A DNA stretch of 64,000 nucleotides from Halopseudomonas nanhaiensis (GTDB lineage Bacteria; Pseudomonadota; Gammaproteobacteria; Pseudomonadales; Pseudomonadaceae). The position numbers were made by a program, and so were the translations under genes. The stretch is from contig NZ_CP073751.1 in NCBI RefSeq assembly GCF_020025155.1, positions 3,411,501 to 3,475,500 of the forward strand. The letters run 5' to 3'. Below are positions 17,755 through 56,438 of the stretch, one piece after another (positions within the stretch are counted from its first letter, which is position 1; each line of letters starts with the position of its first letter). Below the pieces are notes generated by a model. The model had not been told where the DNA came from and did no database searches. It saw only the letters and a program-made list of their open reading frames with translations.

Positions 17755-18462
17755 TTACTGCGAGGTAACTGCGAACCGCGGCTGCGCGGCGGCTGCAGGC
17801 ATACCGGTTTTGGTACGAATATCGGCTACGCAATAATCGATGGAACCGGCGAGGGCAGCGCGGAGCCCGGTCCCGTCTTCCAGCGCTTCGTATGACGGCG
17901 CCGAATCCGTATCCGTGTATTCCGGCATGTGCGTGCACACGCCTTCACTTACCACCTTGCTGGTCTTGGCATCGATCAGCCGGGCGTGGGCCGCATAGAT
18001 GACCTTGTAGTTGTTCCAGTCAGACGGAAAGTAGATCGACCGCCAGCCAACGGTTTTCACGTCGAGGATGAAATCGTGATCGCCGTACGCCTTGACGATG
18101 TCGCCGACGCTGCTCTTGTGCATGACCAGATTGGCCGGCTCGCTGATCGTGACGTTATGCTGCCCCCTCAACCCTTCGCCCAGTCGCTGAGCGATCGTCA
18201 GCGCAGGGTCGGCAATCTTCTGGTTGCGAATAATGGCATTACCGTTGGAAACGGCTGTTGCGTAGCCGATCATTCCGAACTGCACGTTGACCGCCGTTTG
18301 CGCGGCAAAGTCTGGCAGATCTGCATAGCGTGCCACGGCGACTGACTTATCCTTGAGCGCCAGTGAATCATCCGCCGTCAGCCCTTTGGTTTGCACCCCC
18401 GAGCAGCCAGAGATGACTGCCGCGACGATCCCTAACCCCACTACCTGCAACATCCCTTTCAT
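17755..18462 (-). CDS. Lipoprotein of unknown function
   Basis: A 235-residue predicted lipoprotein, signal 'MKGMLQVVGLGIVAAVISGC' with Cys20. The mature part contains 'SVAVARYADLPDFAAQT', a Gly/Ala-rich amphipathic region and 'DHDFILDVKTVGWRSIYFPSDWNNYKV', which by its strand pattern resembles outer-membrane assembly-type lipoprotein folds, but I recognise no family. Two cysteines near the end ('EGVCTHMPE', 'IDYCVADI') could pair. The ATG at 18462 has a GGAGAG site; the frame remains open 117 bp upstream without a ribosome site. It is the first of the three minus-strand lipoproteins. Confidence 0.75.
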   Translation of the reverse strand: MKGMLQVVGLGIVAAVISGCSGVQTKGLTADDSLALKDKSVAVARYADLPDFAAQTAVNVQFGMIGYATAVSNGNAIIRNQKIADPALTIAQRLGEGLRGQHNVTISEPANLVMHKSSVGDIVKAYGDHDFILDVKTVGWRSIYFPSDWNNYKVIYAAHARLIDAKTSKVVSEGVCTHMPEYTDTDSAPSYEALEDGTGLRAALAGSIDYCVADIRTKTGMPAAAAQPRFAVTSQ

Positions 18463-18836
18463 TGCACTCTCCACGTTTACTCGTACCGCTGCGGCATCCG
18501 CCACAACGAATTTGCTCCGATCATCCTTGTAACCACCCGGCCGCTGCACATCGAATGATGACGTTGCGCAGCGCATCACCAGGCGGGGAAGAATCGTTCC
18601 AAGGCTTCATAGCCTCGCAAGAGGCCTATCGCCTTGGAGCGAGCGAACTTTAGGCCGGTCGTCGGCGGGTTAACGGCGCATGGTTGCCCAGGCCCGCTGA
18701 ACGAGCAGAGCAATACCCACACAGCAAAAAAAGGGGACAGATTGATCTAGCCCCTGTCCCTGTCCGTGAAACCGGAGTCAGTTCAATCTGTCCCCTTTTT
18801 TCTGAAAGTTCGCCCGAAAATCTGGATTGATGACTG
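18463..18836. other. Gene-free stretch between lipoprotein and TPS locus
   Basis: Apart from the GGGGACAG inverted-repeat element at 18727-18801, no coding frame with plausible composition was found. Short open frames on both strands across the element are explained by the repeat itself. Base composition becomes more AT-rich toward the TPS side. This is the downstream edge of the accessory locus. Confidence 0.5.
18727..18801. repeat. Inverted-repeat element with GGGGACAG arms (RAYT/REP-like or MITE remnant)
   Basis: A 75-bp element bounded by perfect 19-bp inverted arms AAAAAAGGGGACAGATTGA (18727-18745) and its complement (18783-18801). The inner part contains further CCCTGTCC repeats. I recall A-rich ...AAAGGGGACAGATT... 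termini beside IS200-like REP-associated transposases in many proteobacteria; no transposase frame is present here, so this would be a non-autonomous copy or remnant. It sits just downstream of the small membrane gene that ends the TPS operon, and its long hairpin could also stop transcription from both sides. Confidence 0.7.
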
Positions 18837-19121
18837 CTATTCACCAACCCATAAGAGCCCAACGAAGCAGAGCAAAGCAACCGCTGCCACCGTTCGGCGT
18901 TCAAAATTTGAAGCTTTTTTTGAAACAGCGGCGAGTCCAATAAAAATATCTTTGCCGGCGACATAACTATATATCGCGCTTCCGGACATTATCTGCAACA
19001 CCATGACCAATACCATGGTGTTGCGTTCATCCCATGAGAGCAACAGATTCGTGATAGCGGCAACTCCGAGAATCGCCCATACCATATGTCGGTGGCGAAA
19101 AAGCCAGTGTTCTAAATTCAT
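18837..19121 (-). CDS. Small three-helix membrane protein, candidate immunity protein of the TPS exoprotein
   Basis: A 94-residue protein with three hydrophobic segments: 'MVWAILGVAAITNLLLSW', 'TMVLVMVLQIMSGSAIYSYVAG' (about 35-56) and 'TVAAVALLCFVGLLWV' near the end, with charged loops. Its ATG at 19121 lies 5 bp after the exoprotein stop codon, so it is the last gene of the tpsB-tpsA operon. This is the position of cdiI immunity genes in contact-dependent inhibition loci. Hand counts of 60-base lines across it give about 38-50% G+C, versus 63% in a line of the exoprotein body. I recognise no family. Membrane immunity proteins usually protect against toxins acting on the inner membrane. The immunity role is inference from position, size and composition. 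Confidence 0.6.
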   Translation of the reverse strand: MNLEHWLFRHRHMVWAILGVAAITNLLLSWDERNTMVLVMVLQIMSGSAIYSYVAGKDIFIGLAAVSKKASNFERRTVAAVALLCFVGLLWVGE

Positions 19122-19126
19122 CGCCT

Positions 19127-22100
19127 TTACTCTCGACCCACTTCCACAAGTTTCTGCCATCCACCCGCAAGGTCGATAGCGCTGCTGAGCTTTGTCGCTT
19201 GGCTTGGAGTAAGGCCGCGAGCCACAGCGTAACGGTTGAAGCCCTCTGCAAGCACCGCCGCCCCAACTGCCCCTGCGGAATCCCCTTTCAGATACGCCGC
19301 TACGATTCCTAACCCGGTTGAGCCGACCGCTAAGCTTGAAGGCCCGACGATAGCCGAAGCCGCGAAAGCTTTGCCAAGCTTATCTGCCGTTTGCGCGTCG
19401 ACAGCTTGTATCCAGCGTTTCGTAGCGGGATCGGAGAAATCGATATTCGCCCCAACCGCTAAACATTCGGCATCTCCGCAAGAGCGAAACCGCGGGGAGT
19501 GGGACGTTCCTTCGATCACTACAGACACCCGGTAGCCGCCGTCTTCGTCCAATACGTAACCCGTCAGCCGGTCACGTGGCGCATCGCCTCCTCTGGGAAT
19601 CCCAGAGTACCTAGGGTCAGGTGTATAGCCGAATTCAACGGAAGGCGTCCATGCATAGGTATCAGTGTGCTCTTTGATATAGGCGATGACGTCGCGATTC
19701 GCATCTCCGAAAAGCTGGACATATTTGTCGCCGATTGGGCGCCAATTTCCGTCGAAGTCATATATTCCGTCTTCTGCGGCCAGCATATCAGTAGAAGCAT
19801 TGATGTCGGTCCCATTGATGGCAGCAATTCGAAGCTGGTCTTCGATTTGCTCAACCGTGAAGCGTCCCTCACTTCTTTCCGCGAGCTTTCGTGCAAGCGC
19901 TTTTTCTTCAAAGTGCAACTGCCGATTATAAGCCGTAGCATTCTTTGCAAGGTCCGCACCATGATGCACGTCGCCGCCCGTTACGCCAGCAGCAACGGTA
20001 CCAACAATCTGAGAAGCAGCCTGCTCCAGTCCGTTATTCAGCTCGACGTAGCGCGAAAGCTTTTCGACAAGTGCTTCATTCGCCCCAGCAGCCAAAGCCC
20101 CGGTCGCGAAATCCTGTCCCATCGCCTTACTGATCAGCCCCCCTGTCAGGGCGTGTAACGCCGTTTTCTCCAAGCCACCTTCGGCGAAGTTTTGCGAGCG
20201 AGCCACATCGCCCACTGCATTGAAGGCAATGGCCTGCGCCAAGTGGTAAACCTGTGCGGTCAGCGCAGCTTCAAGGTTCTCGCTGAAGCTGCCACCGTTG
20301 ATGAGCGTCTGGCTCCCCGCCTGGATGGCGCCCTGAGCGGCGAGGTGCGAGCCGAACTTCGCAGCGCCGCCGATGGTGCCAATCTTGAAGCCTTTAGTGG
20401 TGTGGTTGATAAAGTCGGTTTCCACACCGAACGCTTGATCCAGGTAGCCCGCCGTTACACCTGCCGTCAATGCCGAAGTCGCATAACCCTTGATCGCGTC
20501 GCTCGAAGTAACGTCCTTGAATACCGCGCCTAGGTCGCCTCGGTTATTGATAAAGCTGACGCTCGCGGTGGTGGCCGCGCCGCTTGCTGCTGCACCGGCC
20601 GCTGCTCCCATGCCGCCGCCTCCAGCCATACCCGAAACCGCAGGCCCAACAATCGCCGCGACAGCAATCGCAATCACCAACTGCGCCCCAACCCCCAACC
20701 CCGAATGGCTGTACTCGAACGAGTCGTGTACTTCCTTCACGGTCTGCCAATCCACGTCGCCGCGTGCTTCCATCTCCTTAAGCCAGGCCAGATCCGGATC
20801 GGCCTGGACCATGGCGTCGATGGTCCGGCTGACGGTGTTCTGGTCGATTTCCTTGATGTCGATCTGCACGCCTTCGGCAGCGCGGATGGCGAGGTTACCC
20901 TGGGCGATGAGCTGGCTCTGGCGCAGGGTTTCGTCGGTGGTGCCCTTGCCCTTGGCCGAATTCCAGGCCCAGTCGCTCTTGCTCTTCTCGTGGCTTTCCT
21001 GGTGCAGGTCTTTTACCGCTTCGAAGGTGACCGTGCCGCCGCTGTCCAGCGTGATATCGGCACCGCTTTCCAGCCGCGCGCCCTGGTAGCGCTGGCTGCC
21101 TTCGCTGATCAGCGTGACATCGCTGCCCGCTGAAATGCTGCTGCCCACGCTGCGCACGTCAGTGACTTCGTCGCGCCGGGTTTCCTTGCGGCCCCAGGAG
21201 CCTTTGGATTGTTTGTCGTACAGCGAATAGTGCAGGTCATCCGCGGCCAGCAAGTTCAGATCGCCGCCGGCGTAAACGTAGGCTTCGTCGCCTGCGCTGA
21301 TGTGACTGGCGACCAGGTTGGTGTCGCCACCGGAGACGGCAACCACGCTGCCGCCGGCCTTGATCTCAGCCGCCTGCTGGACGATGTCGGTGCGTACGGC
21401 ATCGATCTTCTTGCCGCCACCATCGCGGTGATACTCGAAGTGCGATTCGTTGGCCGCAGCGGCGAGGGTCAGGTCGCCACCCGCCTGGAGCAGCACGTCA
21501 CCCCCTGCCTCGACCTTGCTGCCGACCACTGCCAGGTCACGCCCGGTCTGAAGCGAAGCATTACCCCCAACCTGCAGCTCACCGGCGTGCTGGGTGATGA
21601 TCTGCTGATCGAGCGTTGACCGGCGGTCACGCAGCCGGGTGGCTTCTTCAGTGCGCTGGCTGGCTATCAGCAGATCCCGCCCGGCGCTCAGTTCGGCGTT
21701 GCCGCCGGCGCTCATGGCACCGCCGATATTGAGCAGGTCCCGCCCGGCGTTGAGCGCCAGATCACCACTGGCTTCGATCCGCGCGCTGCTGTCGAGGAAG
21801 TCCTGACGGTGCATGGCACGCTCGCCGCGCTCACTCTGATGGGTGGCAACGCTGCGCTCGTTGATGATATCGCCGGTGAGCGCCGTGGCGGATACCTCAC
21901 GCCCGGCGATGATGCCGCCGGCACTGTTGCGAATGCTGTCCAGCGCCAGCAGCTGCACCCGTTCATGGGCTTGGAGCAGGCCCCGGTTGTCGAGGTTCTG
22001 AGCGCTGGCCGCCAGATCGCGCGAGGCGCGCAGCGTGCCCTGGTTACGCAGTTCGCCGCCGCTGATGAGCGCTACGTCGCGCCCCTGAATCAGCGCGCCG

Positions 22101-25100
22101 TTTGGCGCCAGGCGCCCTTCGGCCTGGGCCAGGTACAACACCGGCACCAGCACCCGCTGGCCCATGACCTCACGCTCTTCCATCCAGACGATGTCGTGCG
22201 TAAGCGCGGCGACCTGTTCAGCGGTCAGTGCCACGCCCAGGCTTAGCTGCAGGCTGTCCTTGCTGGCGATGGCGTTGTCCATCAGGTAGCGGTACATGGC
22301 TTCGTCGCTGGTCATGCCGGCGAGAAAGCGTTGGCCGGTGCGCGCGACGATGGCCTCACGCACCAGACGCTGTTCGTACAGGCCATCGCCCAGGCGCATG
22401 AGCGTGTCGTCGGGGTTGCCGCCCAGGCGCGCGAGCATGTAGTCCGAGCCGAGGAACTGACGCAGATCGGTCAGCGCTGGGTTGGTCTCGATCAGGTAGC
22501 GCTGGGCCGGCGCCGTGTTGCCAGGCGTGACGATCGCGCCCTGATTCGGCACTGCGCCAGGCTGATTCGGGGCCTGGCCTGACTGACCACTGAGACGAAA
22601 CAGGCCGTTCTCGCCCTGCGGCAGGCTGAAGCCGGGCAGGCTTAGCGGGTCGACCTGCTGTTGCTGAAGATCCGGCGGCAAGTGCGGGTTGAGAACGACA
22701 TAGGTAGCCTGACCCGTACCGGGATTGGTGCTTTGCGTGCGGTTACCGCCAGAGGTGTAAGCGAAGCCGGGGCGGATGACGCTGTTATCGATGCGCTCGG
22801 CGGCGTTGATGGTGACATCGCCGGCAGCCTGGATGGTGGCGTGGTAGTCGACCCGGTTGGTGTAAACCGGCTCCCTGATCCCTTCGTCGAGACTGATGTG
22901 ACGGAAGAAATAGTCGATATCCGCAGTAATGTCATTCGGGGCATAGGTCGGACTATCTATCCAATTGCGGTCATTGAATTCGTTGGACTCGGCCCGTCTC
23001 GCGTCGACATATCGTTGGTAGACGCGATAAGCACTGAGTTTACGCACAGTGGTGACATCGCCGGTCTGGGCTCCCTTGTTCAGGAGCGTACCGGTGTCGA
23101 TGCGAAGATTCGCGCCAGAGGCTAGCAGGCTGTACCGGTTTTCCAGCACATCGCTATGCAAACGCATGGATTGGCCGGCCAGAAGCTGCGCCTGCGGGCT
23201 AACACGGGTCGCCGAGGTACGATCGACTTCTTCCAGGTCGAAGTAAGAGCTTTCCTTGGTGCCGCCACAGTCACCACACCCCAGGTAGATCAACCGTGCC
23301 GAGACCTTCTCGGTCACGATATCCAGCGTTTCACGAGCGTTTTCCAGGAAGCTCGCCGCTATGGACAGGTTCCCCTGACTCTCGACCGTTCCGGACAGGT
23401 TGCTGAAGCGGCCGGCAAGCGCGCCTGCATCGTTGGCTGCGAAGGAAAGGTCGCCGAGGCTGTAGATATCGCCGCGCAGGTTGGTCAGCGCGTTACCACG
23501 CAGGTGCATATCGCTGCCACTGAACAGCAGACCACCCTGGTTCAGTAGAGAGGCAGCCTGCAGGCGTACATCCTCCCCTGCGCCCAGCGTGCCGTAGTTG
23601 TACAGCGAACCCGTCGTGAGGCTCAGGTCCTGCCCGGCCGTCAGGCGGCCATGGTTGGTGAGCGCATGGGTGATGCTGACAGTTGCGTTGCCACCGGCAC
23701 CCGTGCGGCCGGCACTGGCAAGGTCCACCGTGTGGGCCGCAAAGCTCATGTCACCGAGGCTGGAGAGCGTTCCGGTGCCGTTATAGGTACCGGTCAAGCG
23801 CAGATCGAGCGTGCCATCGCTGGTCAGCAAGCCGTGGTTGGTCCAGTGCCCACCGGTTGCTACGAGTGAATCGCTAGCGATGATGCGGCCAGTCTGATTC
23901 TGCGTGAACCGGCCCACGTTCAGCGTGAGGTTCGCCGCCTGGAGCAGGCCTTCGTGAATCCATTCGGCGGCGTCTAGCGTGAGATCGCCGTGGGTGATCA
24001 GGCTGCCTCCGGCCTGAGTAACAGTCTGGCTAGCTACGTCCAGGCGGCCGGTACCGACGTGCCTGGCGGTGCCACCGGCGTTAAGCAACCCACCGAGATT
24101 GAGCCGCAAGTCCGTGTTGGCGCTTTCGATGGTGCCGCTGCGGTTATCCAGCGTAGAGCGGGTGATAATCGAGGTGGTGCCAGTCTGACCGAGCGCGCGC
24201 AGGCTGCCGTTACGGTTGTCCAGCGTTCCGGTATTCAACACCAGGTGCGAGTCGCTTTCGATCAAGCCGTTTACGTTGAGCAGATCGCTTGCGGACAACT
24301 CGATGTATTGCGCGCCGATGCGGCCGAGGTTGTTATCAAGTAGGGTGCTATCAAGAGCCAGATTGCCGCTTGCCAACAGATTGCCTTGGCGATTGGTCAG
24401 GCTGCCTGCCTGAATGCTCGCATCGCCGGCCAGCGCAGTAATGCGACCCTGACTGTTATCCACGACACCCGCATTGAGGTTAACCGACTCGGCCTGCAGC
24501 ACGCCCGCGATGTTGCTCACCGCGCCGCTGATGCGTGCAGTCAACCATCCAGAGGCCGCACTCAAGAGCCCGTTGTTGCTGTTGTTCAGTTGTGCCGCGT
24601 TTACCTCGAGGTCGCCTTGGGCGATTAGCTGCCCACCACGGTTGTCGAGAGCTCCGGCCGTGTTGACGACCACGTCGCTGGCGGCCTGGACGGTCCCTGC
24701 GCCGTTACGGACCTCGCCAGCGTCCAGCGTCACAGTTGCATTGCGGCTTAGTAGCAATCCGGTACCGCTGTTGTCGAGGGTGCCGCTCATATTGACGGCG
24801 AAAGCGTCAGTGGCGACGATCGATCCGCCCATATTCAGCAGGTCGACGCCAAAGAGATTCAGCAGCTGATTGCTGGCCAGGTAGCCGTTGCTGTTGTCGA
24901 TTCGCGTCGCTTCGATTCGTAACGGCCCGGCTGCCGTAAGCTGGCCAGCATTATTGAACAGTGCATTGGTCAGTCTGACCGTCAGTGTGCCGCCGCTGGC
25001 CAGTTGCCCGGTACGGTTATCGAGGCTGGCTGCCGTTAGCGCGAACGGGCCGGCACTCTGCATCTGCCCGTCCTGGTTGATCAGCTCTGAGGCGTCGATG

Positions 25101-27016
25101 GTCAGACCAGAGCCTGCACTGATCACCCCGACGGAGTTGTCCAGCGTCTGCTGCGCAACAATGCTCAGGTTACTCTGGCTGGACAGGATGCCGCCCGCGC
25201 CGTTATCGATCGAGCCGACCTGTAGCTGCTGCGCACCCGCGCTGACGACAGCCCCTTCGCTATGGTTATCCAGTTTGCCGGACAGCGTGACAGACACCGC
25301 CCCCTCGCGGCTGGACAGTGTTCCTTGGCTGCTGTTGTCCAGATTGTCGCCAACGAGAGCGATCCCGGCCATGCCGGAGATGAGCCCGGCGCGGTTGTCG
25401 AGTTGGCTAACCTGCGCATCAAGTGAGGTACCAGCGATCACGCGGCCCTCACCGTTGTTCATCTGACCGGCGATTAACGCCAGGCTCTGTTGGCTGGAGA
25501 TTTCGCCGTTCTGGTTGGTAATGGTTGCGGACTCGACGCGTGCTGCTCCGGCGCTTGCGACCCACCCGTTCGTGCTGTTGTCCAGCGCGCCAGCGGAAAG
25601 CTGCATCTCACCCATGGCGATAATATCGCCGCCGCGGTTATCCAGCGTGTTGGCCACGTTGAGCTTGGCAGTCTGGCCGCTGTGCATCACGCCCTGCTGG
25701 TTGTCGAGCTGGCTGGCTCGTACCGCAAGCTGGGTGTCGGCCAATACACGGCCGTCAGCATTGAGCAGCGCTGCGGCTGAAATCTGCAGGTCGTCGGCGG
25801 CAACCGTACCCTGGCGGTTGTCCAGTGTTCCACTAGCCTGGATAGCCGCCGAACCGCTCGCCAGCAAACTGCCTTCGTTCACTAGATTGTTGGCGGAGAC
25901 GTTGAGATCCGAGCTGAAATTGCTGGTGCCACCGGCAGCGACACCCGCTTCGATGACGCCTCGGTTGACTACGGTATCGGCAGCGAGCTGAACCGCTCCC
26001 GCGGCAGCCAGGCTGTCGTGTACGGTCAGGGCTTCCCTGGCCTTTACGGACGCCTGACCCTCCGCATAGGTATCGGCAGTCAGATCGACCTGATTGGCGG
26101 CGATGCGTACATCCCCCGCCGCCGCCGTACGCGCCATGCTCAGATTGCCGTTGGCGTCGATATGAATATCACCAGCATGTGCTGCCATGTCGCCAGCCAG
26201 CCGCACGCCGACGCCCTGCTCGGTACCGATCAGCTGAATGGCGCCGGCGTACATACCGCCCAGCGCGGAGCTGTCGAGTGCCAGGGCGGGCTTGTCACTG
26301 CCGTCATCGGCCTTGGCGGTGGCAGCCAGTGAATCCGCATCGACCTGGTTGCGGCCGGTGACGATGTTCAGCTGGTTGGCGTGCAGGTTGGCGTTGATCT
26401 GCGCGCTGCGGGTGATCAGATCGAAGCGGTCGACATTGCTGGCGTTGAGGCCGGCGCCTTCGATGCGAATCGCCCCGCCGTCGACGTCGAACTGGCGAAG
26501 TGCACCCTGCTCGATGATCGGCTTGCCGGTACTCAGGGTGACGCGCGGGGTATTGATGAAACCGCAGCCATCACAGGTGATGCCGTGGGGGTTGGCGACG
26601 ATCACCCCGGCGCGCTGGCCCGCCACCTCGGTATAGCCGCGCAGATTACTCGGGTTGGCGCCGGTAACCTCGTTGAGAATCAGCCCGGCTGCGCCGCCGG
26701 ACAGGTTCGGGTTACCCAGAATGATGCCGCCCAGCTGGGTGCTGTTGGTCGCACCCGTGGCATTGTTCAGGATCAGCCCCTGCTGGCCCACGTTGTATTC
26801 ATTGAAGCGGTTGTGCGATAGCCCCGCAGAGCTCGGGGTGGCAATGTTGACCACCGGCACGCCATTGCCCGCCTGACCCAGGCTGGCGTTGCCGCCGGCG
26901 GCTGCGTCCAGGGCAAGGTCGGCGCCCATGGCGACGACCGGATTGATGAACAACACGCCGACTAGAATGGCGGCGACGTTCTGGAACAGAGGGCTGCGGG
27001 TATCCATGGTATTCAT
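19127..27016 (-). CDS. Filamentous haemagglutinin/CdiA-like two-partner secretion exoprotein (TpsA)
   Basis: A 2629-residue secreted protein. After a signal peptide comes the TPS secretion domain (about 35-300) with 'NPHGITCDGCGFINTPRV'. A long beta-helix follows, built from dozens of about 20-residue repeats with 'LDNR.G' and 'GNLSI' patterns, then haemagglutinin repeats (about 1650-2050) with 'GGDLTLAAAANESHFEY' style units. A glycine/alanine-rich DUF637-like region (about 2100-2350) leads to 'NATAYNRQLH' (about 2357-2367), a motif that often marks the border of exchangeable toxin tips. The last 261 residues are unlike the rest and include hydrophobic stretches 'AASAIVGPSSLAVGSTGLGI' and 'AGAVGAAVLAEG'. 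ATG 27016 gives the longest form; ATG 27007 has a better spaced AGGGA site. TpsB lies 15 bp upstream. Confidence 0.9.
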   Translation of the reverse strand: MNTMDTRSPLFQNVAAILVGVLFINPVVAMGADLALDAAAGGNASLGQAGNGVPVVNIATPSSAGLSHNRFNEYNVGQQGLILNNATGATNSTQLGGIILGNPNLSGGAAGLILNEVTGANPSNLRGYTEVAGQRAGVIVANPHGITCDGCGFINTPRVTLSTGKPIIEQGALRQFDVDGGAIRIEGAGLNASNVDRFDLITRSAQINANLHANQLNIVTGRNQVDADSLAATAKADDGSDKPALALDSSALGGMYAGAIQLIGTEQGVGVRLAGDMAAHAGDIHIDANGNLSMARTAAAGDVRIAANQVDLTADTYAEGQASVKAREALTVHDSLAAAGAVQLAADTVVNRGVIEAGVAAGGTSNFSSDLNVSANNLVNEGSLLASGSAAIQASGTLDNRQGTVAADDLQISAAALLNADGRVLADTQLAVRASQLDNQQGVMHSGQTAKLNVANTLDNRGGDIIAMGEMQLSAGALDNSTNGWVASAGAARVESATITNQNGEISSQQSLALIAGQMNNGEGRVIAGTSLDAQVSQLDNRAGLISGMAGIALVGDNLDNSSQGTLSSREGAVSVTLSGKLDNHSEGAVVSAGAQQLQVGSIDNGAGGILSSQSNLSIVAQQTLDNSVGVISAGSGLTIDASELINQDGQMQSAGPFALTAASLDNRTGQLASGGTLTVRLTNALFNNAGQLTAAGPLRIEATRIDNSNGYLASNQLLNLFGVDLLNMGGSIVATDAFAVNMSGTLDNSGTGLLLSRNATVTLDAGEVRNGAGTVQAASDVVVNTAGALDNRGGQLIAQGDLEVNAAQLNNSNNGLLSAASGWLTARISGAVSNIAGVLQAESVNLNAGVVDNSQGRITALAGDASIQAGSLTNRQGNLLASGNLALDSTLLDNNLGRIGAQYIELSASDLLNVNGLIESDSHLVLNTGTLDNRNGSLRALGQTGTTSIITRSTLDNRSGTIESANTDLRLNLGGLLNAGGTARHVGTGRLDVASQTVTQAGGSLITHGDLTLDAAEWIHEGLLQAANLTLNVGRFTQNQTGRIIASDSLVATGGHWTNHGLLTSDGTLDLRLTGTYNGTGTLSSLGDMSFAAHTVDLASAGRTGAGGNATVSITHALTNHGRLTAGQDLSLTTGSLYNYGTLGAGEDVRLQAASLLNQGGLLFSGSDMHLRGNALTNLRGDIYSLGDLSFAANDAGALAGRFSNLSGTVESQGNLSIAASFLENARETLDIVTEKVSARLIYLGCGDCGGTKESSYFDLEEVDRTSATRVSPQAQLLAGQSMRLHSDVLENRYSLLASGANLRIDTGTLLNKGAQTGDVTTVRKLSAYRVYQRYVDARRAESNEFNDRNWIDSPTYAPNDITADIDYFFRHISLDEGIREPVYTNRVDYHATIQAAGDVTINAAERIDNSVIRPGFAYTSGGNRTQSTNPGTGQATYVVLNPHLPPDLQQQQVDPLSLPGFSLPQGENGLFRLSGQSGQAPNQPGAVPNQGAIVTPGNTAPAQRYLIETNPALTDLRQFLGSDYMLARLGGNPDDTLMRLGDGLYEQRLVREAIVARTGQRFLAGMTSDEAMYRYLMDNAIASKDSLQLSLGVALTAEQVAALTHDIVWMEEREVMGQRVLVPVLYLAQAEGRLAPNGALIQGRDVALISGGELRNQGTLRASRDLAASAQNLDNRGLLQAHERVQLLALDSIRNSAGGIIAGREVSATALTGDIINERSVATHQSERGERAMHRQDFLDSSARIEASGDLALNAGRDLLNIGGAMSAGGNAELSAGRDLLIASQRTEEATRLRDRRSTLDQQIITQHAGELQVGGNASLQTGRDLAVVGSKVEAGGDVLLQAGGDLTLAAAANESHFEYHRDGGGKKIDAVRTDIVQQAAEIKAGGSVVAVSGGDTNLVASHISAGDEAYVYAGGDLNLLAADDLHYSLYDKQSKGSWGRKETRRDEVTDVRSVGSSISAGSDVTLISEGSQRYQGARLESGADITLDSGGTVTFEAVKDLHQESHEKSKSDWAWNSAKGKGTTDETLRQSQLIAQGNLAIRAAEGVQIDIKEIDQNTVSRTIDAMVQADPDLAWLKEMEARGDVDWQTVKEVHDSFEYSHSGLGVGAQLVIAIAVAAIVGPAVSGMAGGGGMGAAAGAAASGAATTASVSFINNRGDLGAVFKDVTSSDAIKGYATSALTAGVTAGYLDQAFGVETDFINHTTKGFKIGTIGGAAKFGSHLAAQGAIQAGSQTLINGGSFSENLEAALTAQVYHLAQAIAFNAVGDVARSQNFAEGGLEKTALHALTGGLISKAMGQDFATGALAAGANEALVEKLSRYVELNNGLEQAASQIVGTVAAGVTGGDVHHGADLAKNATAYNRQLHFEEKALARKLAERSEGRFTVEQIEDQLRIAAINGTDINASTDMLAAEDGIYDFDGNWRPIGDKYVQLFGDANRDVIAYIKEHTDTYAWTPSVEFGYTPDPRYSGIPRGGDAPRDRLTGYVLDEDGGYRVSVVIEGTSHSPRFRSCGDAECLAVGANIDFSDPATKRWIQAVDAQTADKLGKAFAASAIVGPSSLAVGSTGLGIVAAYLKGDSAGAVGAAVLAEGFNRYAVARGLTPSQATKLSSAIDLAGGWQKLVEVGRE

Positions 27017-27031
27017 CCCTGAAACAACTGA

Positions 27032-28723
27032 TCAGAAAAACAGATCGATACGGAAATAGGTCGGGTTCTCGTCGCGGGGTAACGCGTCCGGGCGCACCAG
27101 CGATTGGGCAAAGGTCACGCTTGCGGCGATGTGCTTGCCGCGCAACGACAGCTCCAGCGCGTTGCCGCTGAGCCGGCCGCTCTGCCCCGGGTTGTACTCG
27201 TCGGACCGAATCGCGCCCAGGTCGTAGCCCAGGGCTACGCCGTACTCGCTGACCCAGGGGGTGAGCGGCGCGAAGGTCACGGCTTGCCGCCAGCGAAGGT
27301 TGTTGCGCCAGTAAAAGCCGCTGTCACCGGCGAGCGATTGCTCCTTGAAACCCCGCACCGACGCCAGCCCACCCAGGCTCATCCGCTGGGGGCCGAAGAG
27401 TACGTCTTCACTACGTTGGCCGTAGATCAGACTTTCGACGCTGAAGCTCTCGTCCCATAGGCGCAGCGGCTGAAGGTAGCTGAGGGTGAGCGTGTACTTG
27501 TTGTAGTTGGCGACCGGCTGGCTGCCCCGTGGGCGACCATTGCTCTGCGCATCGAATGCGCCGATGCCATGCTGCCAGCCGATATCGCCATTGACGAAAG
27601 CCCCGCCAATACGCCGGCCGTGATTGACACCCAGCTGCAGTTCGCTCAGCCGGTGGCTGGAGGAGTCGAGCAGAGAGTTTTCGATGTAGTTACGCGTGCG
27701 CAGGTGCGCCAGGCCGACCGCAGCGCCGGTTTTGCCAACGCTGTCGCGATGCAGGGTGCGCTCCAGCGTCAGTTGGTGCCGCTTGCTCTCGCCGTCGGAG
27801 GTGAAATCGAAGTTAGCGGCCTGGTTGAGGGTTCGGTAATAGCTCTGGCTATAGGCGTAGCTCGCCGTCCACCAGCCGTAGGGCACGCTATAGAACAGGC
27901 TCTGGTTGGAAGAGTGCCGCCAGTGGTCGCTGACCGCATCGCCACCGGTACGCAGCCGCAACTGGTCGGCCAGTCCAAGGGGGCTATCCCAGGCCAGCGC
28001 GGCCTCCCATTGCTGCTCGCCGGTGCCGAGTTGGCCATCGTTGTGTCGGCCAAGCGCAACCTGCCAGGGTTTGCTGCGCAGCCCCTTGAGCTGAACGCGG
28101 CTGCCGCCCATCTGCTCGCCCGGTAACAGCTCGATCTGCACCTGTCGCGAAGGAAGCCGACCCAGCTGGTCGATCATCTGCTCCAGTTCACGCAGGTTGA
28201 GGTGCTCGCCGACTGCGCCCGGGAAGGCCATGGCCATTTCGCGATCCGACGCCAGGCCAGCACCGTCGAACCCTTCCAGCCGCCCTTCGATGAGGATGAC
28301 TTCAAGCTCACCATCGCTCATGTCCTGCTGGGGCAGATAGGCGCGCGCAGTCACAAAGCCGCGATCAAGATAGCGGGCGGTGATGTGTTTGAGCAGGTCA
28401 TTCAGGCCGGTCGCGCCGAGGCACTGGCCCTGGTACGGCTCGATCAGGTCTTGTTGGGTTGGTGCGTCGAGCAGGCTGACGCCCTGAAGACGAATACGAT
28501 CGATCTGGAAGCAGCGATCGGGTTCGGCGCCCAGCGCAGGCTGGCGATCCGGCGTGCTGCCGGGCAGCGATTGCAGCTCCTGCAGCCGTTGTTGCTGCTC
28601 GCGCAGGAGCTGCTCCTGGCGATCACGAATCAGGTTGATATCGCCCGGCGTGGCCTGGGCAAGAACGATCGGACACCACAGCACTACAGCCAGCGCAGTC
28701 ATTGCGCTCAATGCAATCCGCAT
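27032..28723 (-). CDS. TpsB outer-membrane transporter (ShlB/FhaC/CdiB family)
   Basis: A 563-residue Omp85-type pore that exports the exoprotein across the outer membrane. It has a signal peptide (about 1-23), an N-terminal plug helix rich in Gln/Arg/Leu ('EQLLREQQQRLQEL'), POTRA1 starting 'CFQIDRIRLQGVSLL' with a paired Cys in 'YQGQCLG', POTRA2 ending 'LEVILIEGRLEG', and a 16-strand barrel with the conserved 'VRGF' lid-loop motif ('GLASVRGFKEQSL') and a terminal Phe. The ATG at 28723 has a GGAAGG site; the longer frame up to 28795 would bury the signal peptide. It lies 15 bp upstream of the exoprotein gene in the classical tpsB-tpsA order. Confidence 0.93.
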   Translation of the reverse strand: MRIALSAMTALAVVLWCPIVLAQATPGDINLIRDRQEQLLREQQQRLQELQSLPGSTPDRQPALGAEPDRCFQIDRIRLQGVSLLDAPTQQDLIEPYQGQCLGATGLNDLLKHITARYLDRGFVTARAYLPQQDMSDGELEVILIEGRLEGFDGAGLASDREMAMAFPGAVGEHLNLRELEQMIDQLGRLPSRQVQIELLPGEQMGGSRVQLKGLRSKPWQVALGRHNDGQLGTGEQQWEAALAWDSPLGLADQLRLRTGGDAVSDHWRHSSNQSLFYSVPYGWWTASYAYSQSYYRTLNQAANFDFTSDGESKRHQLTLERTLHRDSVGKTGAAVGLAHLRTRNYIENSLLDSSSHRLSELQLGVNHGRRIGGAFVNGDIGWQHGIGAFDAQSNGRPRGSQPVANYNKYTLTLSYLQPLRLWDESFSVESLIYGQRSEDVLFGPQRMSLGGLASVRGFKEQSLAGDSGFYWRNNLRWRQAVTFAPLTPWVSEYGVALGYDLGAIRSDEYNPGQSGRLSGNALELSLRGKHIAASVTFAQSLVRPDALPRDENPTYFRIDLFF

Positions 28724-28867
28724 TACAACACCTTCCCTGGTAACAGCTAGACATTCACCGGGCGGATTATTGCCAGACTGATGTCGCTGAGCCATGCAAG
28801 AAAGATGGAATGGGGAAAGGCGTCACGAAGATGGCATAAAGATGGCCACCCACAGACCAATGGTCAG

Positions 28868-48866: not shown

Positions 48867-49826
48867 CTAATGCGCCACCGCCCATTCCTGCTCCAGCCAG
48901 TCCCGCATGGCACTGGCCAGCTGTTCTGGCGTTCCCTGCCGGCTACTATGGCCGGCATCCTGTACAGCCTGGGGCATGACTCCGCAGGCGGCGCTCTCTG
49001 CGGTCTGCGTCCACACCTCCATGCCGCTCTGGCGCAGCCGCCCGCAGGCCGCCACCCCATCCTCGCCCATACCACTGAAGATGATCGCACCACACGCGGG
49101 CGCAAAGCCGCGCATGACCTCATCGATCACCGACTCGATCGCCGGCTGGTACGGACCAGGCCAGGGCGCATCACGCATCTGGACCTGGCGGTCGCCGCCA
49201 AACTGCATTGAGCGCTCGATCGGTGCTATCAGCACCTCGCCCGGGGCAAGCCCTACACCCGGCACGCAATTGATGATCCGCCATTCGTTGTGCCGGCCCA
49301 CGATTTGCGGCAACTGCGCTTCGAACGTCGCATCGATGTGCTGAGCGTAAACGAAAGCTACCGGCAGGCTTGCCGGCAAGTGATCAAGAAACGCCTTGAC
49401 CGCGGCCGGACCGCCGAGCGAGGCCGCCAGTACCCAGACACAAGCGGGTGCGTTCGGCGTCGAAGCTGGAGCCATAGTCGGCGCCTCGCCCCCGGGCGCA
49501 GCGCCTATCAGCGGCAGCAGCTTGTTGTACAGCTGTCGTTTCCAGCGCGGATAGTCTTCGCTGTCGGCCTCCGGCGTGTCGCCGACCCCCAGCAGCACCG
49601 GGACATCGCTCTGGTCCAGCAGCCAGTCGATCGCTTCGCATTCGTCCGAGACGTCCAGCAACCACAGATCGGTATCGATCGACCCGAGTTGCGCCGGCGT
49701 CAAACGCTCCGGCCCGTCAATGAACACCAGCCGGTAGCCGAACCCGGCGAGCACCTCGGCAAGCACCTCGCGCCTGCACCGCCCGCTGGCAAGCAGAGCG
49801 ATGGCAGGCGCGAGCGCATCAGTCAC
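48867..49826 (-). CDS. chpB: CheB-type protein-glutamate methylesterase ChpB
   Basis: A 319-residue methylesterase that removes methyl groups from the PilJ receptor. The C-terminal CheB domain (about 130-315) shows the catalytic Ser in 'LAASLGGPAAVKAFL', His in 'AQHIDATFEAQL' and Asp in 'GMGEDGVAACG'. The N-terminal region (about 1-115) is not a normal receiver: it has 'DLWLLDVSDE' but lacks the usual acidic pocket at the start, as I recall for Pil-Chp CheB proteins. The GTG at 49826 is preferred; it overlaps the chpA stop codon by 8 bp, implying translational coupling. A TTG at 49856 is the longer alternative. Confidence 0.92.
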   Translation of the reverse strand: MTDALAPAIALLASGRCRREVLAEVLAGFGYRLVFIDGPERLTPAQLGSIDTDLWLLDVSDECEAIDWLLDQSDVPVLLGVGDTPEADSEDYPRWKRQLYNKLLPLIGAAPGGEAPTMAPASTPNAPACVWVLAASLGGPAAVKAFLDHLPASLPVAFVYAQHIDATFEAQLPQIVGRHNEWRIINCVPGVGLAPGEVLIAPIERSMQFGGDRQVQMRDAPWPGPYQPAIESVIDEVMRGFAPACGAIIFSGMGEDGVAACGRLRQSGMEVWTQTAESAACGVMPQAVQDAGHSSRQGTPEQLASAMRDWLEQEWAVAH

Positions 49827-52800
49827 TGAGCGCGACCAGGCGGCCGATGACTTCAAGCAGTTGACCCTCCTGATACGGCTTTCCGAGGTACTCGTTCACG
49901 CCGATCGCCCGCGCCCGGTCGCGGTGCTTCTCACCGGTCCGCGAGGTGATCATGATGATCGGCAGGTCCTGAAGACGTTCGTCATGGCGTACCAGGGTGG
50001 CCACTTCGAAGCCGTCCATGCGCGGCATCTCGATATCCAGCAGCATGATGTCCGGCTGAATGTCCTGCAGCTTGGCGATCGCTTCGAGGCCGTCCTTCGC
50101 CGTAACCACTTCCATCCCGTGCCGCTCGAGCAGACGGCTGGTGACCTTGCGTACGGTAATCGAATCGTCCACCACCATGACCAGGGTGGGCCGCTCCTCG
50201 TTCTGCGCCTGGGTCAATTGCTGACGCTCGGCAGCCAGACGCTGCTGCGAATGCAGCGCCTGCTGGGCACGAATCACTGCCAGCAGATCGAGAATCACCA
50301 CTACGCGGCCGTCACCCAGGATGGTCGCGCCGGAGATGCCCGGCACCACGGCGAACTGCTTGCCAAGGCCTTTCACCACGATTTCCCGCGAGCCTGCCAG
50401 CGCATCGACCTGAACGGCGACGCTGTGCTCGGTTCCGCGCACGAGAATCACCGGGAGCGGCAGACTGTGCCCGCTCAGCTTGGGCTGCTGCCCGGTGACC
50501 AGCAGATCGCCGAGATAGCGCAGGTCATAGGTCTTGCCGGCGTACTGGAACGCCGGGGCGTCCGGCGCGTAGTAGGCTTCGAGCTCGTAGCCGGAAACCC
50601 GCACGATACCCTCGATGGTGTTCAGCGGAATGGCGTAGAGGTCCTCGCCGGAATACACCATCAACGCACGGTTCACCGACACGGTGAACGGCAGGCGGAT
50701 GGTGAACACCGATCCCTGACCCGGCTCGGTGGTCAGCGTCATGCTGCCGCCGAGCTGCTTGACCTCGGCATTGACCACATCCATGCCGACACCACGCCCG
50801 GAAATCTGGGTAACCTTTTCCGCGGTGGAGAAGCCGGCTTCAAGAATGAACTGCAGAATCTCCTGGTCGGTGAGTTCGGCAGAGGCGTCCATCAGTCCGC
50901 GCTCGATCGCCTTGCGCCGCACCGCGTCGAGATTGATGCCGGCGCCATCATCGGCCAGCTGCAGGACGATCTCGCCGCCTTCACGACGCAGGTCGAGCAT
51001 GATGTTGCCCTGCTCCGCCTTGCCACTCGCGCTACGCCGGTCCGGCATCTCGATGCCATGGTCGACCGCGTTGCGCAGCATATGCTCCAGCGGGCCGATC
51101 ATGCGTTCGAGCACGCTGCGATCCATTTCGCCTTCAGCGTTGCCGACAGTCAGCTCGACCTGCTTGCCGAGCTCGGTGGCAACCTGCCGAACCACACGGC
51201 GCATGCGCGGCAACAGCCGCTCGAAGGGCACCATGCGCGTGCGCATCAGGCCTTCCTGAAGTTCGGTATTGACCCGCGCCTGCTGGACCAGCAGCGTTTC
51301 GGCATCGCGACTTTTAGCGGCCAGTGTTTCCTTCAGATCGAGCAAGTCGGATGCGGACTCGAACAGCGATCGCGACAGCTGCTGCAACTGCGAATAGCGG
51401 TCCATCTCCAGCGGGTCGAAATCCTCGTAACCCTGCTCGATCTCCTCCTGGTGCCGCGAGAGGATCTGCGCCTGGGTTTCCATGTCCAGCCGGCGCAGCT
51501 GGTCGCGGACCCGCTCGATGGTCGTTTCGACGTCGGACAGCGTCTGGCTCAGGTCGCTCACCTGCTGCTCGACCCGGCCCCGGAAAATGGACGTTTCACC
51601 GGCCAGGTTGACCAGCTCTTCGAGCAGCGCAGCGGGAACCTTGACGGTTTCCTGTCCGCTACTGCGGCTGGTGCGCGACTCGGAACCCTGGCCGACCTGC
51701 ATGGCCTGCTCGAGCACCGCCTTGACAGTGGCCAGCGTCTGGGTCGGCTGCGCAGGCTCAAGCGCTTCAATCGGCGCAATGTCGCGCACCGGGTTGGAAG
51801 ACCAGTTCTGCGGCGTATTCCAGCCGGCGTCCTCCACTTCGCCACCTGCCGCGATCTGCTCGACCGCCGCTCGCAAGCCATCCAGTGCGCCAGCAAGCGC
51901 ATCATCATGCTCTGCGGTGACATCATGCAGCGCGGACTCGAGTCGCTTCGCCTGCTCGGCCAGGACGTGCTGACTGGCCAGTCTGGCGCTGCCCTTGAGC
52001 GTCTGAATGCGATGCAGCAACTCATGCGCGGCGGCCGCATCGCTGCGCCGTGCTTCAAGCAGCGCGCTGCACGGAGCGAGCAGTTCGCGCGCTTCTTCGA
52101 CGAACATCCCCAGCATGCCCTTGAGCGGCTGGTTGACCAGTCGCGCCGCAGGCGAAGCGGGCTCTACCGAGTCCTCGACGGCGGAGGCCGCCGGCGCTGG
52201 AGCGGCCTGACCCGGCAGCACCACCGGCGCCTCGGGATTGGACCGGTACTGGCGAATCGCTGCAATCAGTGCACGACCGGTGCGCACCGGTCGGCGCGCG
52301 ATAATGCCTTCGATCATCTCTGCCAGCGCATCGTGGCAGGCGTGCAGCAAGGCGAACAAGGGTTCACTGGGCTGGTAACGCATCTCGCCCAGCCCTTCGT
52401 AAAGGAACTCGAGTTCGTGGGCGAGATCCCCGACCGGGGTAATCTCGGCCATGCGGGCGCCGCCCTTCAGTGTGTGCAGGTCACGTTGCAATGCCGCCAC
52501 GGCAATGCCATTACCGGTGTCTTCAAGCCAGTGCCGCAAGCTTTCGCTGGAGCTTTCGATGATCTCCTGGGCTTCTTCCAGGAAGATGTCCACCAGCTCG
52601 ACATCGGTCGCCGATGCCGCCGGATCCCACAGCTCTTCGCTTGCGCCTGCCGCTACGACTGGCGGTTCGGCATCGTCGACGCTTACCTCGGTCGGCGCCT
52701 CGTCATCCGCGGGCTGGTCAGCTTCACGTTGTTGCAGCAACGCAGCCAGCGCGGCTATTTCTGCAGCAGGTGCGGCTACATGCTGATGCGCGGCCACCTG

Positions 52801-55800
52801 GTCCATCATGGTAATGAGCCGTTCGTGCGCGGCCACCAGCGTGGAGGCGCCTTCGGCATCCAGATCCAGACGCTGCTCTGCGAGCGCGCCATGCACATCT
52901 TCCAGCGACTGGCACAGCGACTCGAGCTCACCCAGCTCCACGTCCCCGGCTACTTCACCCAGCGCCCTGAGACTTGATACCAGCGCCTGATTGTCGACCG
53001 GTTCCGGTTGGCCCGGCTTCCAGGCCAACAGCTGGTCAGCTGCATCGAGCAACAGATCAAGGCCTTCAGTGAGGAAGATGGAAAGCAGCCCCGCCTCGCC
53101 TGAAGGGCTCTGATCCGACTCGCTGCGGCGCTTGTCGCGGGTCTCGAGTGCCCTGGCGTGAATCTGCTGCAGGCGTGCGAGAAACGCGTCGGTGTCTTCT
53201 ATCGGTTCATCGGCGTTGACCTCAAGCCGCGCCAGACCGCTTTCGATCATGCTCACGGCGTCGCCCAGCAGATCGGCGAATTCGCGATCGGCGGCGATCA
53301 GGTTGGCCTTGAATTCCTTCGCCAGCTTCTCCAGCGGCGTCGCCAACGTGGCGATCGGCTTGATGCCTGCCATGTGCGCGCTGCCCTTGAGCGTATGCAG
53401 GGCGCGTTGCAGGGAATCGTTGATGCTGCGCGGCACGCTCTGATCGCACAGCCGCAGGAAGTCCCTGATCTCCTCGATGTGAGCCTGGGTTTCGTTCCAG
53501 AAAATCTCCAGCAGCACCGGATCGAGACCATTGGTCTCCATCTCCATGGCGGACGCTTCAGCCGTGTCGGCAGGCTCGGCGTCTTCCTCGACCCTCTCCG
53601 CTGTCAACGCGTCAGCGGTTGGTTCGACCGGCGCATCGACCAGACTCTCAAGCGCTGCATCGTCACCTTCATCACTGCCGACATCCAGCCCGGCCAGGAT
53701 AATGTCTTCCTGGTCTGTCTGCTCCGGCTCTGTCGGCTGCGGCTCTATAAACTCGAATTCGACAGTGGATGCGTCGTCGGCCAGCTCGTTCGTTGCCGAC
53801 GCCTCGGCGTCCGACAAGGAGCCCTGCGCGTCAACCGTGTGTTCTTCTTCACCCGCCTCATCCAGGCTGGTTTCAGAGTGATCGGTTTCGAGGACGATTG
53901 GATCGTCCTGATCCGCTGCCTCGATGGGATCAGGGTCGATACTGAACTGAACATCCGCAGGAGCCTCGCCTGCCTGCGCCGCATCGTCCTGCGCACCGCT
54001 ATCATCGTCCAGCAACGACTCGGCCGCAGGCCCTTCCGAGATCGGAGCAGGCATCGGCTGTCCTTTGCCCAGCGCGTCGGCACAGCTCGACAGGTACTGC
54101 ACCTGCGGTCGCATCTGCTGCTGATGGGCGGCGAAGTCGTCCACCAGTTGCGGCATCAGCGCGCGCACATCGTTTACCACGCCGAACAGCTCCGGGCTGG
54201 TCCCGATGTTGCCGTCTATGACGCGATTGAGCATGTTCTCGACGGACCATGCCAGCTCCGCCAGCACACCGGCGCGCACCATCCTGCCGCTACCCTTGAG
54301 TGTGTGGAAGCCACGACGGACTTCTGCTCGGGCCTTGTGATCATCGGGATCGGCCTGCCACGCCGGCACGAACTCCTGCAGCGTTTCAAGGACCTCTCCG
54401 ACCTCCTCGATGAATATCTCGACCAGCTCTTCGTCCAGCTCATCCTCGTCGGCATCGCTGGCTGCCATCTGAACCGCAGCCGGCGGCTCGGCGACGGGCT
54501 CGCTTTCGGGTGCAGGAGCACTCGCTTCGATCGGCAGGTCCGACTCCGGCTCGGGGGCGCCGGCTTCCGGCTCCTCGCCTGCGTCGAGGTCGATTTGAGG
54601 GAGTGTGCTGCCGGTCGGCTCTGCGTCGGCAGTTTCCCCGGTGACGTCTGCGGCTTCAGCTTCAGCTTCAGCTTCAGCTTCAGCTTCAGCCAGGGGGGAC
54701 GATTCGGGAGCGAAGGTTCGGAGGCTTTCAGCGTCGTACCCGAGCGTGGCGAGCCGTTCCTCGGCCACAGCAAGAATCCCGTCGCCCCGGTTGGCGTCGT
54801 CTTCAGCCAGGCGCTCGAGGTAATAATCCACGCTGGTAATGACATCGGCCAGCGCGTCAAGCGATTCCCAGCTGGGCACCGCCCGCGGTGCGAGCAGCGA
54901 TTCGTTGACGCACTGCCGGCATATCCCTACCACCGTCGAGGCGCGCGCCAGGCCAAGCATCGACAGACTGCCGCGAACGCTGTTGAGCAATCCATCGACT
55001 GGCTGGAGATGCTGATGATTCCACTGGTGTGCGATGAAGGCATTGATCGCTTCGCGGGTAAGCTCGAGATCGTTGCGCGCTTCATGGACCACCTGGCGGT
55101 GAACGGCCTGCATGTCCCGGGCCGCGGCGACTCGCTGGGCCTCGTCGCTGTCCGGTTTGCGCGTTCCGTCGCTGCGTTCCTGTCCGGAAATGCCCTGCAG
55201 GCTCGCTTCGACAAACAGCAGCCCGCCGGCGATATCCATCAACGAACCGTCGCCGATCGGCGACCGGGAGACGGCCAGACGGTCGACCTGTTCGATCTGC
55301 TCGAGCAGCACACGCCTCGGTTGGCCCAGGCCAAGCATGGCCAGCGTATCGGCAATCTGCTTGAGGGTGGGCAGCATGTCTGCCAGCTGCTCCGGCTGAC
55401 TGCGGTCACTGCGCACGAACAGGTCCAGACGGTCCTTGACCTGGTTAAGCTCCTCGCCCAGCGCTATCACCACGGACTGCATGGCGCTGCGGTCGGGGCC
55501 GACCAGCCGGCTGGTGCGATCAGTGTCCTGATCGGCCTGATCCCAGGCGCCGTTGAGCTGATAACGCTCTTTCAACGCGTCCAGACGGGGACTGGCGCCG
55601 GAACTCTTGGCGACGTAAAAGAGGAGGTTGCGCAGCAGTTCAGGGGCCGGCCTGGCGCTGAGCGCGTCGGGCCCGGCATCAAGTAGCTGACGCAACTCCC
55701 GATCTGCCTGACGCAACAGCTGCTTGATGGCGGCACCCGGCTCGATGCTACCGGTTTGAAGGCCCTCGGCTATTCCGGCGAAAACCTTCCACAGGTTGGC

Positions 55801-56436: not shown

Positions 56437-56438
56437 AG

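Follow-up and report, generated by a model that had tools for sequence, protein, structure and literature searches.

The pre-toxin motif NEALV marks class V of the contact-dependent growth inhibition (CDI) systems of Pseudomonas, a class reported only in P. aeruginosa in the available excerpts of its description (Mercy et al. 2016, PMC4725963; what is said here of this and the other cited papers refers to such excerpts). The E. coli CDI ionophores depolarise their targets, are predicted to form a five-helix bundle and have a G-x3-G-x3-G zipper as their only common sequence element (Halvorsen et al. 2024, PMC11630599), and their immunity proteins are hydrophobic, 72-100 residues long and about 30% identical within a group (PMC11630599). 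Orphan CDI arrays contain intervening transposase or integrase genes, transposition and site-specific recombination having been suggested for them (PMC3150448, PMC4927057), and Poole et al. called the exchange mechanisms of orphan cassettes unknown (PMC3150448). Here we describe a minus-strand operon of two-partner secretion (TPS) genes and a small membrane protein gene, followed by a palindrome, in a 64-kb stretch of the Halopseudomonas nanhaiensis genome (the window, which in the following means this whole stretch). The best explanation of the operon, to which we give a probability of roughly 0.85, is a CdiB-CdiA-CdiI locus that encodes an entry domain, a membrane-depolarising toxin and its cognate immunity protein in a swappable cassette. 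TpsB would export TpsA, and on contact the part behind a YNRQLH junction would be released into the neighbouring cell; the first ~170 residues of this tip would serve as an inner-membrane entry domain, the last ~95 would insert into that membrane and dissipate its potential, the 94-aa membrane protein would be the cognate immunity protein, and tip and small gene would together form the exchangeable cassette. The features of the locus, in window coordinates, are as follows.

27032 to 28795, minus strand: cdiB-like tpsB, 587 aa from the first ATG, with Pfam ShlB (3.2e-87), POTRA_2 and POTRA_3.
19127 to 27016, minus strand: cdiA-like tpsA, 2629 aa in an uninterrupted frame, with a TPS domain (1e-54), FHA repeats, Fil_haemagg_2 and DUF637 (1e-31).
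26138 to 26917, minus strand: TPS secretion domain (Pfam), TpsA residues 34-293.
20087 to 20602, minus strand: DUF637 pre-toxin domain, TpsA residues 2139-2310, with NEALV then at residue 2313.
19913 to 19930, minus strand: YNRQLH junction, TpsA residues 2363-2368, the point of divergence among relatives.
19412 to 19912, minus strand: putative entry-type region of the tip, TpsA residues ~2369-2535 (presumed edge), with an invariant Cys pair of the CGxxEC type.
19130 to 19411, minus strand: hydrophobic C-terminal domain, TpsA residues ~2536-2629, a putative toxin delimited by an alignment (A4) and hydropathy.
18837 to 19121, minus strand: putative cdiI, a hydrophobic 94-aa open reading frame (ORF); relatives of its product stand behind related tips.
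18727 to 18801, no strand assigned: palindrome with perfect 19-bp outer arms and ends of the RAYT type (REP-associated tyrosine transposase; REP, repetitive extragenic palindrome), 35 bp 3' of the small gene.

A first-pass annotation of this stretch had described tpsB, a tpsA of 2629 codons and a 94-aa ORF as one tight minus-strand operon, and the ORFs and their gaps of 15 bp (tpsB/tpsA) and 5 bp (tpsA/small ORF) were confirmed. Its placement of the motif NRQLH at base 19913 was also correct (bases 19913-19927, TpsA residues 2364-2368). Its tpsB start at 28723 agrees with a Met that directly precedes the TpsB signal peptide and is the probable true start; the first ATG of the ORF lies further out, at 28795. 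As in CDI loci, a partner of the Omp85 type (ShlB, POTRA_2, POTRA_3) adjoins cdiA, and the CdiA-like protein combines a TPS domain, FHA repeats and a pre-toxin domain. The host genome is a single contig of 3.65 Mb with one match to TpsA, and whole TpsA had matches in 7 of the 38 genomes searched, its own counted.

The annotation had proposed testing whether TpsA identity collapses after NRQLH, and this was examined by aligning the C-terminal half of TpsA with proteins of genomes G161, G098 and G066 and counting identities per 40-residue bin (G, C and L numbers are our handles for genomes, contigs and loci). From TpsA residue 1441 on, most bins of the G161 and G098 proteins showed 15-35 identities per 40, but the count fell to 8-12 at 2201-2280 and 12-14 at 2321-2360. 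The junction bin (2361-2400) held 17/39 identities for G161, 12/39 for G098 and 18/39 for a 927-aa ORF of G066, and the bins beyond it held 2-14 identities of 24-40, which is the level of a forced global alignment. A second exoprotein of G066, of 3030 aa, has a different C-terminal part and could be aligned only to about TpsA residue 2000. By BLASTP, five tips of the same genus (G161, G098, the 927-aa ORF of G066, G090 and G184) showed no likeness to the window tip past their first 9-36 residues (best E 0.001), while a sixth, on contig G066:C36, was 51% identical over 270 residues. Tips thus diverge abruptly at a conserved motif, which is YNxxxH instead of VENN. A scan of the junction over the loci collected by then gave 41 rows, of which 5 lay within CdiB and were removed; 34 of the 36 remaining tails were complete, and all 34 were followed by an ORF of at least 55 aa starting between -100 and +60 nt from the stop, a lenient criterion. 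As the annotation had anticipated, this junction is elsewhere followed by different tips and different small ORFs. In the open-licence literature, no paper was found that names NRQLH or YNRQLH, nor one on CDI in Halopseudomonas.

Of 398 Pseudomonadaceae genomes, 26 had matches to the 278-residue tip, many of these matches being short and at the junction, and the small protein had matches in 13 of 298. A profile of the toxin domain reached 17 of the 398 at E 0.01, several of them weakly. The same profile had no match in 368 other genomes of the class, few of them Pseudomonadaceae, and a class-wide spread of the toxin was rejected since, with the window's own genome counted, it matched just that one among 369. 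Excluding fragments (e.g. L014, L015, L031), we counted 14 distinct tips with the window's toxin domain, its own included, and directly behind 12 of them stands an intact hydrophobic ORF of 92-110 aa that starts between 52 nt before and 6 nt after the tip stop. This pair of tip and small hydrophobic ORF recurs on other exoproteins, so it is not conserved together with the TpsA body; joint conservation with the body is what the annotation had named as refuting its reading. The possibility that the small gene is a chance ORF was rejected, because its sequence relatives stand behind related tips. Overall, these results, together with the domains and the divergence at the junction, support the annotation's reading of a contact-dependent competition system: the locus is almost certainly a CDI locus, and the small gene very probably its cognate immunity gene, as judged from sequence. 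The tip also occurs as orphan cassettes outside any exoprotein (L009, L010, and L031 with a broken small gene), and the G170 tip carries an internal stop. In Pseudomonas sp. JM0905a (L005/L085) the tip is intact and the small gene behind it is frame-broken, so that tip and antidote may be out of balance there, or one of them silent.

The annotation had left the toxin unassigned, and hidden Markov model searches of the window tip and small protein in Pfam, NCBIfam, PHROGs and PADLOC likewise gave no match, while a comparison with PDB sequences gave chance-level matches only (best E 0.17). Among relatives of the two proteins, single members matched DUF5485 (0.003) and DUF6850 (0.024). Against plasmid records the tip had one partial Paraburkholderia match (tip residues 12-96, 38.5%, E 6e-7), and the toxin domain had none.

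The tip is itself modular, which refines the earlier reading; the palindrome in which the locus ends is a second refinement. Four tips with other toxin ends and other downstream ORFs keep the entry region or its first part. Tips L013 and L028 have their first ~111-120 residues in common but diverge after that, and are followed by ORFs of 123 and 129 aa; L091 matches the window tip to residue 195, and L090 matches it to residue 253, its own end starting by eye near 190 and carrying an Stv domain. The ORFs downstream of L091 and L090 (195 and 150 aa) have no hydrophobic segment. Because these tips share only the front part, and an orphan fragment in G115 starts at tip residue 184, directly behind a palindrome, a delivery region to about tip residue 185 and a toxin region of ~95 residues look separable at the sequence level. 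The invariant Cys pair falls in the delivery part. We also noted an NRQLH entry region with other toxin ends in Cupriavidus (L094, L096) and Dyella (L095), so the delivery part extends beyond Pseudomonadaceae.

The claim of a G+C-poor tip and small gene was borne out on whole segments rather than on single lines. The tip has 55.3% G+C (G+C at third codon positions, GC3, 0.54), the small gene 46.7% (GC3 0.50) and the TpsA body 62.8% (GC3 0.75). None of 2096 tip-length windows of the TpsA body was as G+C-poor as the tip, and none of 2268 windows of small-gene length was as poor as the small gene; in the whole window, which contains the tip and small gene themselves, stretches as low numbered 36 of 1264 at tip length and 2 of 2549 at small-gene length. 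Between the palindrome and the next gene (18579-18726) G+C is back at 61%. The hand-counted 60-base lines of the annotation needed correction: 21001-21060 has 61.7% (claimed 63%), 19681-19740 and 19741-19800 have 55% and 46.7% (claimed 47-55%), and the small-gene lines of 18901-19140 have 38, 43, 52 and 47% (claimed 38-50%). Lone lines of this kind prove little, as 9% of the 118 TpsA-body lines scanned do not exceed 55% either.

At the 3' end of the operon, the 75-bp inverted repeat at 18727-18801 has perfect 19-bp outer arms and T6 at its end on both strands, and a strong hairpin is predicted for it (z -7.2). The genome contains five copies of its 15-mer end, AAAAGGGGACAGATT, two of them here and the other three around a Y1/RAYT-type transposase gene at 1.414-1.416 Mb, and no copy of a reversed control pattern of the 15-mer. 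This RAYT-type gene (G000:C1:1414266-1416180, L145), bounded by the same 15-mer, is a possible source of the window palindrome. The window contains no Y1 gene; the four found in the genome all lie elsewhere. Elsewhere in Halopseudomonas, at the CDI loci of G161 and G066:C36, the small gene is followed by a RAYT gene or fragment that carries the motif. A literature query with GGGGACAGATT returned nothing on bacterial repeats among the titles listed (open-licence literature). Of the neighbouring genes, a predicted lipoprotein-like gene adjoins the CDI operon (window 17755-18579; no Pfam match at 1e-5), and a query from this flank (17758-18456), used as a marker of an empty site, had no relative in 19 other genomes of the genus. 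Farther away, at 49819-59426, lie genes for a CheA-type histidine kinase of 2207 aa that carries Hpt domains and for a PilJ-type chemoreceptor, which probably form a pilus chemosensory cluster. Promoter and terminator scans gave results no better than shuffles, the loop limit of the scan making it blind to the palindrome.

Among ten relatives with CDI or orphan immunity genes, three lacked the motif, and in the other seven many copies stand just 3' of the CDI locus; with the window's genome, 42 of 60 copies do so by our reading (9 of 9 in G062), and exact half motifs number 0-11 per genome (11 genomes). We then sought the exact doublet in 233 Pseudomonadaceae genomes, and DUF637 in a draw of equal size, whose listed handles all fall in the first. 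The doublet was found at 20 places in 12 of the 233 genomes, with 1-3 copies each, and DUF637 in 66 genomes of its draw. Fourteen of the 20 doublets stand 3' of a DUF637 domain at a distance of no more than 10 kb, a placement expected at 0.26% for each (P about 7e-34), or 10 of 15 when counted by cluster (P about 1e-23); the P values assume independence of copies and block ends, which does not hold, and the count per cluster is the safer one. By genome, DUF637 was present in 10 of 12 with the doublet vs 56 of 221 others (P 8e-5).

In several relatives such elements repeat. Orphan immunity arrays split by 80-86-bp palindromes with RAYT-type ends were seen 3' of cdiA at L068, L070, L147/L085, L146, L153, L156 and L160 (genomes G127, G115, G062, G114, G178, G024 and G170, respectively), except that G024 showed no cdiA within 10 kb of its array. 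In G115, G127, G062, G114, G178 and others these arrays consist of small-ORF stretches between successive palindromes, whose half motifs mostly start 68-69 nt apart; 18 of 33 stretches measure 400-660 bp. Leaving out intervals without an ORF, of unknown cdiA direction or of at least 2500 bp, 24 of the 33 intervals remained, and the longest ORF runs in the cdiA direction in 23 of them. Named immunity families were found in 8 of 35 array ORFs (CdiI twice, Imm8, Imm35, Imm50, Colicin_immun, ImmE5 and SUKH), the 35 being 31 of the 40 interval ORFs listed plus 4 further ones, some of the 35 being toxin fragments (e.g. L070:4016), and two of the eight (L146:9861, L070:4462) lying beside rather than strictly between paired palindromes. 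None of 29 hand-picked control ORFs outside the arrays matched an immunity family, and MqsRA and ParDE genes were among them. NCBIfam named no array ORF an immunity protein; nearly all of its matches were to pentapeptide-repeat models, one member each. An array ORF of G127 is 85% identical to the ORF directly behind cdiA of G115. MqsR/MqsA genes were seen to mark the far end of two arrays (L146:6848-7554, L153:7761-8470), where flank identity reaches the first palindrome.

Homology between arrays from different genomes, compared pairwise within one genus, also breaks at the elements. In 13 of the 14 blocks listed (one flank block was dropped), 36 of 43 block ends inside arrays fall within 30 bp of the motif (10.5 expected) and 23 of 43 at palindromes alone (7.1 expected), counts that are biased upwards to the extent that BLAST alignments tend to run through shared palindromes and so to end there. 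One block, 1257 bp long and 98.8% identical, has a palindrome at each of its ends in both genomes. The same ends bound full-length RAYT genes, on both sides in 6 of 8 and on at least one side in 8 of 8. With 46 paired elements in relatives and a repeat-bounded transposase gene, the elements look like non-autonomous doublets of the RAYT type, to judge by their sequence; a high genome-wide copy number, as REPs have, was not found. One of three things may hold: the transposase moves the cassettes, the repeats act as sites of recombination, or they are terminators that have stayed with the cassettes. We tentatively propose, at somewhat less than even odds, that Pseudomonadaceae CDI loci are integron-like capture platforms, in which tip/immunity cassettes and orphan immunity genes are acquired, lost and traded as units edged by a dedicated, low-copy RAYT-type palindrome, via single-strand exchange by the transposase or recombination between copies; the window would be the simplest form, bounded by the cdiA junction and, at the other end, by one divergent palindrome.

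For the palindrome of the window, a credible alternative that we would likewise not back at even odds is that it merely terminates transcription in both directions, as the remnant of an old RAYT-type element, and plays no part in exchange. The perfect 19-bp arms ending in T6 on both strands, the strong predicted hairpin and the single divergent copy would all suit a terminator. So would the outcome for compensatory changes, found at 0 of 22 hairpin pairs across the 46 relatives (the window's element not included), a set chosen for having both ends and with arms selected for likeness; covariation was accordingly rejected as support for the hairpin, leaving repeat identity as what the hairpin rests on. 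A terminator would not predict clustering at CDI loci, small genes that run in the cdiA direction between copies, RAYT genes with these same ends on their flanks or homology blocks that end at the elements. Weighing in turn against the proposed capture platform, the motif is present in the fetched DNA of just 5 of the 14 loci with the window's tip (its own, G066:C36, G127, G062 and G115), the exact palindrome is in just 10 of the 66 DUF637 genomes, and 6 of the 20 exact palindromes are not near DUF637. Of these six, two in G178 and one on G170:C199 stand behind other CdiA-like ORFs, named from sequence by eye, one in G024 belongs to an array of orphan immunity genes for which no cdiA was seen within 10 kb, and for those in G141 and on G170:C197 no CDI gene was recognised nearby. 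As the window holds one copy, with a core unlike the others, and no RAYT gene, we infer the cassette edge in the window itself from its relatives.

As for what the cassette would do, the toxin probably acts on the membrane, and on balance we favour a depolarising, ionophore-like action. The median peak 19-mer hydropathy of the toxin domain family is 1.33, vs 0.45 for the last 97 residues of 22 other CdiA tips of our choosing, and the domain is also less charged than the ends of those 22. The 94-aa protein has about three hydrophobic stretches, by hydropathy only, compared with the two-helix hairpin of E. coli ionophore immunity proteins. Membership of the toxin in the E. coli CDI ionophores was rejected on the glycine zipper, which 2 of the 9 rows of A4 have; with the zipper absent, the toxin is likened to the ionophores in action and not filed among them.

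It is unlikely, though worth weighing, that this is instead a CDI locus with an enzymatic membrane or periplasmic toxin, whose membrane protein blocks the target or entry as in immunity to colicin-M-like bacteriocins in Pseudomonas. Invariant polar residues ahead of the hydrophobic part and the missing glycine zipper would fit an enzyme, and membrane immunity to a lipid II-cleaving toxin is on record for Pseudomonas (PMC5358913, as excerpted). The conserved polar stretch is also present in the other-ended tips L090 and L091, however, and is thus more likely part of the delivery region, and the last ~95 residues have just 2 invariant columns in A4. A plain TPS adhesin with an adhesin C-terminus and an unrelated small neighbour is very improbable: TpsA is adhesin-like along most of its length, but relatives of tip and small gene co-recur on different exoproteins (12 of 14 intact), tips are swapped at one junction, and orphan tip/small-gene cassettes occur outside exoprotein frames (L009; L031, with its broken small gene).

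Several observations speak against a CDI locus with a membrane-depolarising toxin in a swappable cassette, or against parts of it. In ten loci (one without an intact small gene was dropped, and the entry/toxin cut was fixed at 174 residues), toxin and immunity distances were correlated (Mantel r 0.47, reached in 1.8% of permutations) and immunity distances tracked neither the entry region nor the body, which supports the CDI reading, but the toxin-immunity test is one of six, would fail a strict correction and depends on a fixed cut position. Mean identities were 45.7% for the pre-tip body, 51.9% for the entry region, 38.1% for the toxin and 30.7% for the immunity proteins, the last compared with 25.8% for shuffled proteins. 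In the 500-700 nt scanned, the orphan tip of G006/L088 lacks a small ORF of this kind, and for the tip of G062/L085 the ORF is broken. Two other-ended tips overlap the toxin family in hydropathy (L013 with 1.52 and one L066 tip with 1.30), and the G-x3-G-x3-G zipper is absent from the window toxin domain and from 7 of the 9 A4 rows in all. The divergence lies partly before the junction, G098 being already at 12/40 in the preceding bin, and G+C is already down to about 55% just upstream of it.

Taken alone, the operon is one more CDI locus, its toxin/immunity family absent from the libraries searched and its class V architecture found in Halopseudomonas. The palindrome behind it lifts the interest of the locus beyond that of an ordinary CDI operon, as the swapping of toxins and the pile-up of antidotes at CDI and type VI secretion system (T6SS) loci are an open point in the excerpts of Poole et al. 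2011 (PMC3150448) and Kirchberger et al. 2017 (PMC5361080). A repeated edge hairpin with a linked single-strand transposase would make cassette exchange testable, and the palindrome offers a way to locate, by sequence, immunity genes unlike any known.

Compared with described systems, again as far as the excerpts of the cited papers go, the locus is like class V Pseudomonas CDI in its cdiB-cdiA-cdiI order, in DUF637 followed by NEALV, in its variable tip and in its small downstream ORF, and unlike the class V report in its host and in an identity drop that comes 50 residues further on, at YNxxxH (PMC4725963). With the E. coli CDI ionophores it shares an entry domain followed by a hydrophobic toxin domain and the modularity of entry domains, and its hydrophobic 94-aa protein falls within the 72-100 aa of their very hydrophobic immunity proteins; it differs in lacking the glycine zipper and in having YNRQLH in place of VENN (PMC11630599). 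The arrays of its relatives resemble the orphan cdiA-CT/cdiI arrays, in which displaced cassettes follow one another 3' of cdiI, oriented like cdiA (Poole et al. 2011, PMC3150448; PMC4927057, 2016), but the excerpts of those reports mention no repeated palindrome at cassette edges, whereas the relatives here have one. They also resemble polyimmunity loci with their tandem unrelated immunity genes, where adjacent XerC/D recombinases were suggested to aid accumulation (PMC3482391, 2012); the excerpts on these describe no palindrome between genes, and the linked gene in the relatives here is a RAYT-type transposase (PMC3482391). In the open-licence literature, as excerpted, we found no repeated palindrome at the edges of orphan CDI arrays or polyimmunity loci. 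The elements are like REP doublets or REPINs and their RAYTs in having an inverted doublet about 60-70 bp apart and a repeat-bounded transposase gene (Nunvar et al. 2010, PMC2817692; PMC3390384, 2012), but known REPs have hundreds of copies genome-wide (PMC3390384), whereas the elements here are few and concentrated at CDI loci. Finally, the arrays are like those of the Vibrio cholerae T6SS, in which orphan immunity genes stand at the 3' end of a killing locus and have been likened to integron cassettes (Kirchberger et al. 2017, PMC5361080); for those, the excerpts report no evidence of an integrase-like agent (PMC5361080), whereas in the relatives of the window a repeated element and a linked transposase stand at the edges.

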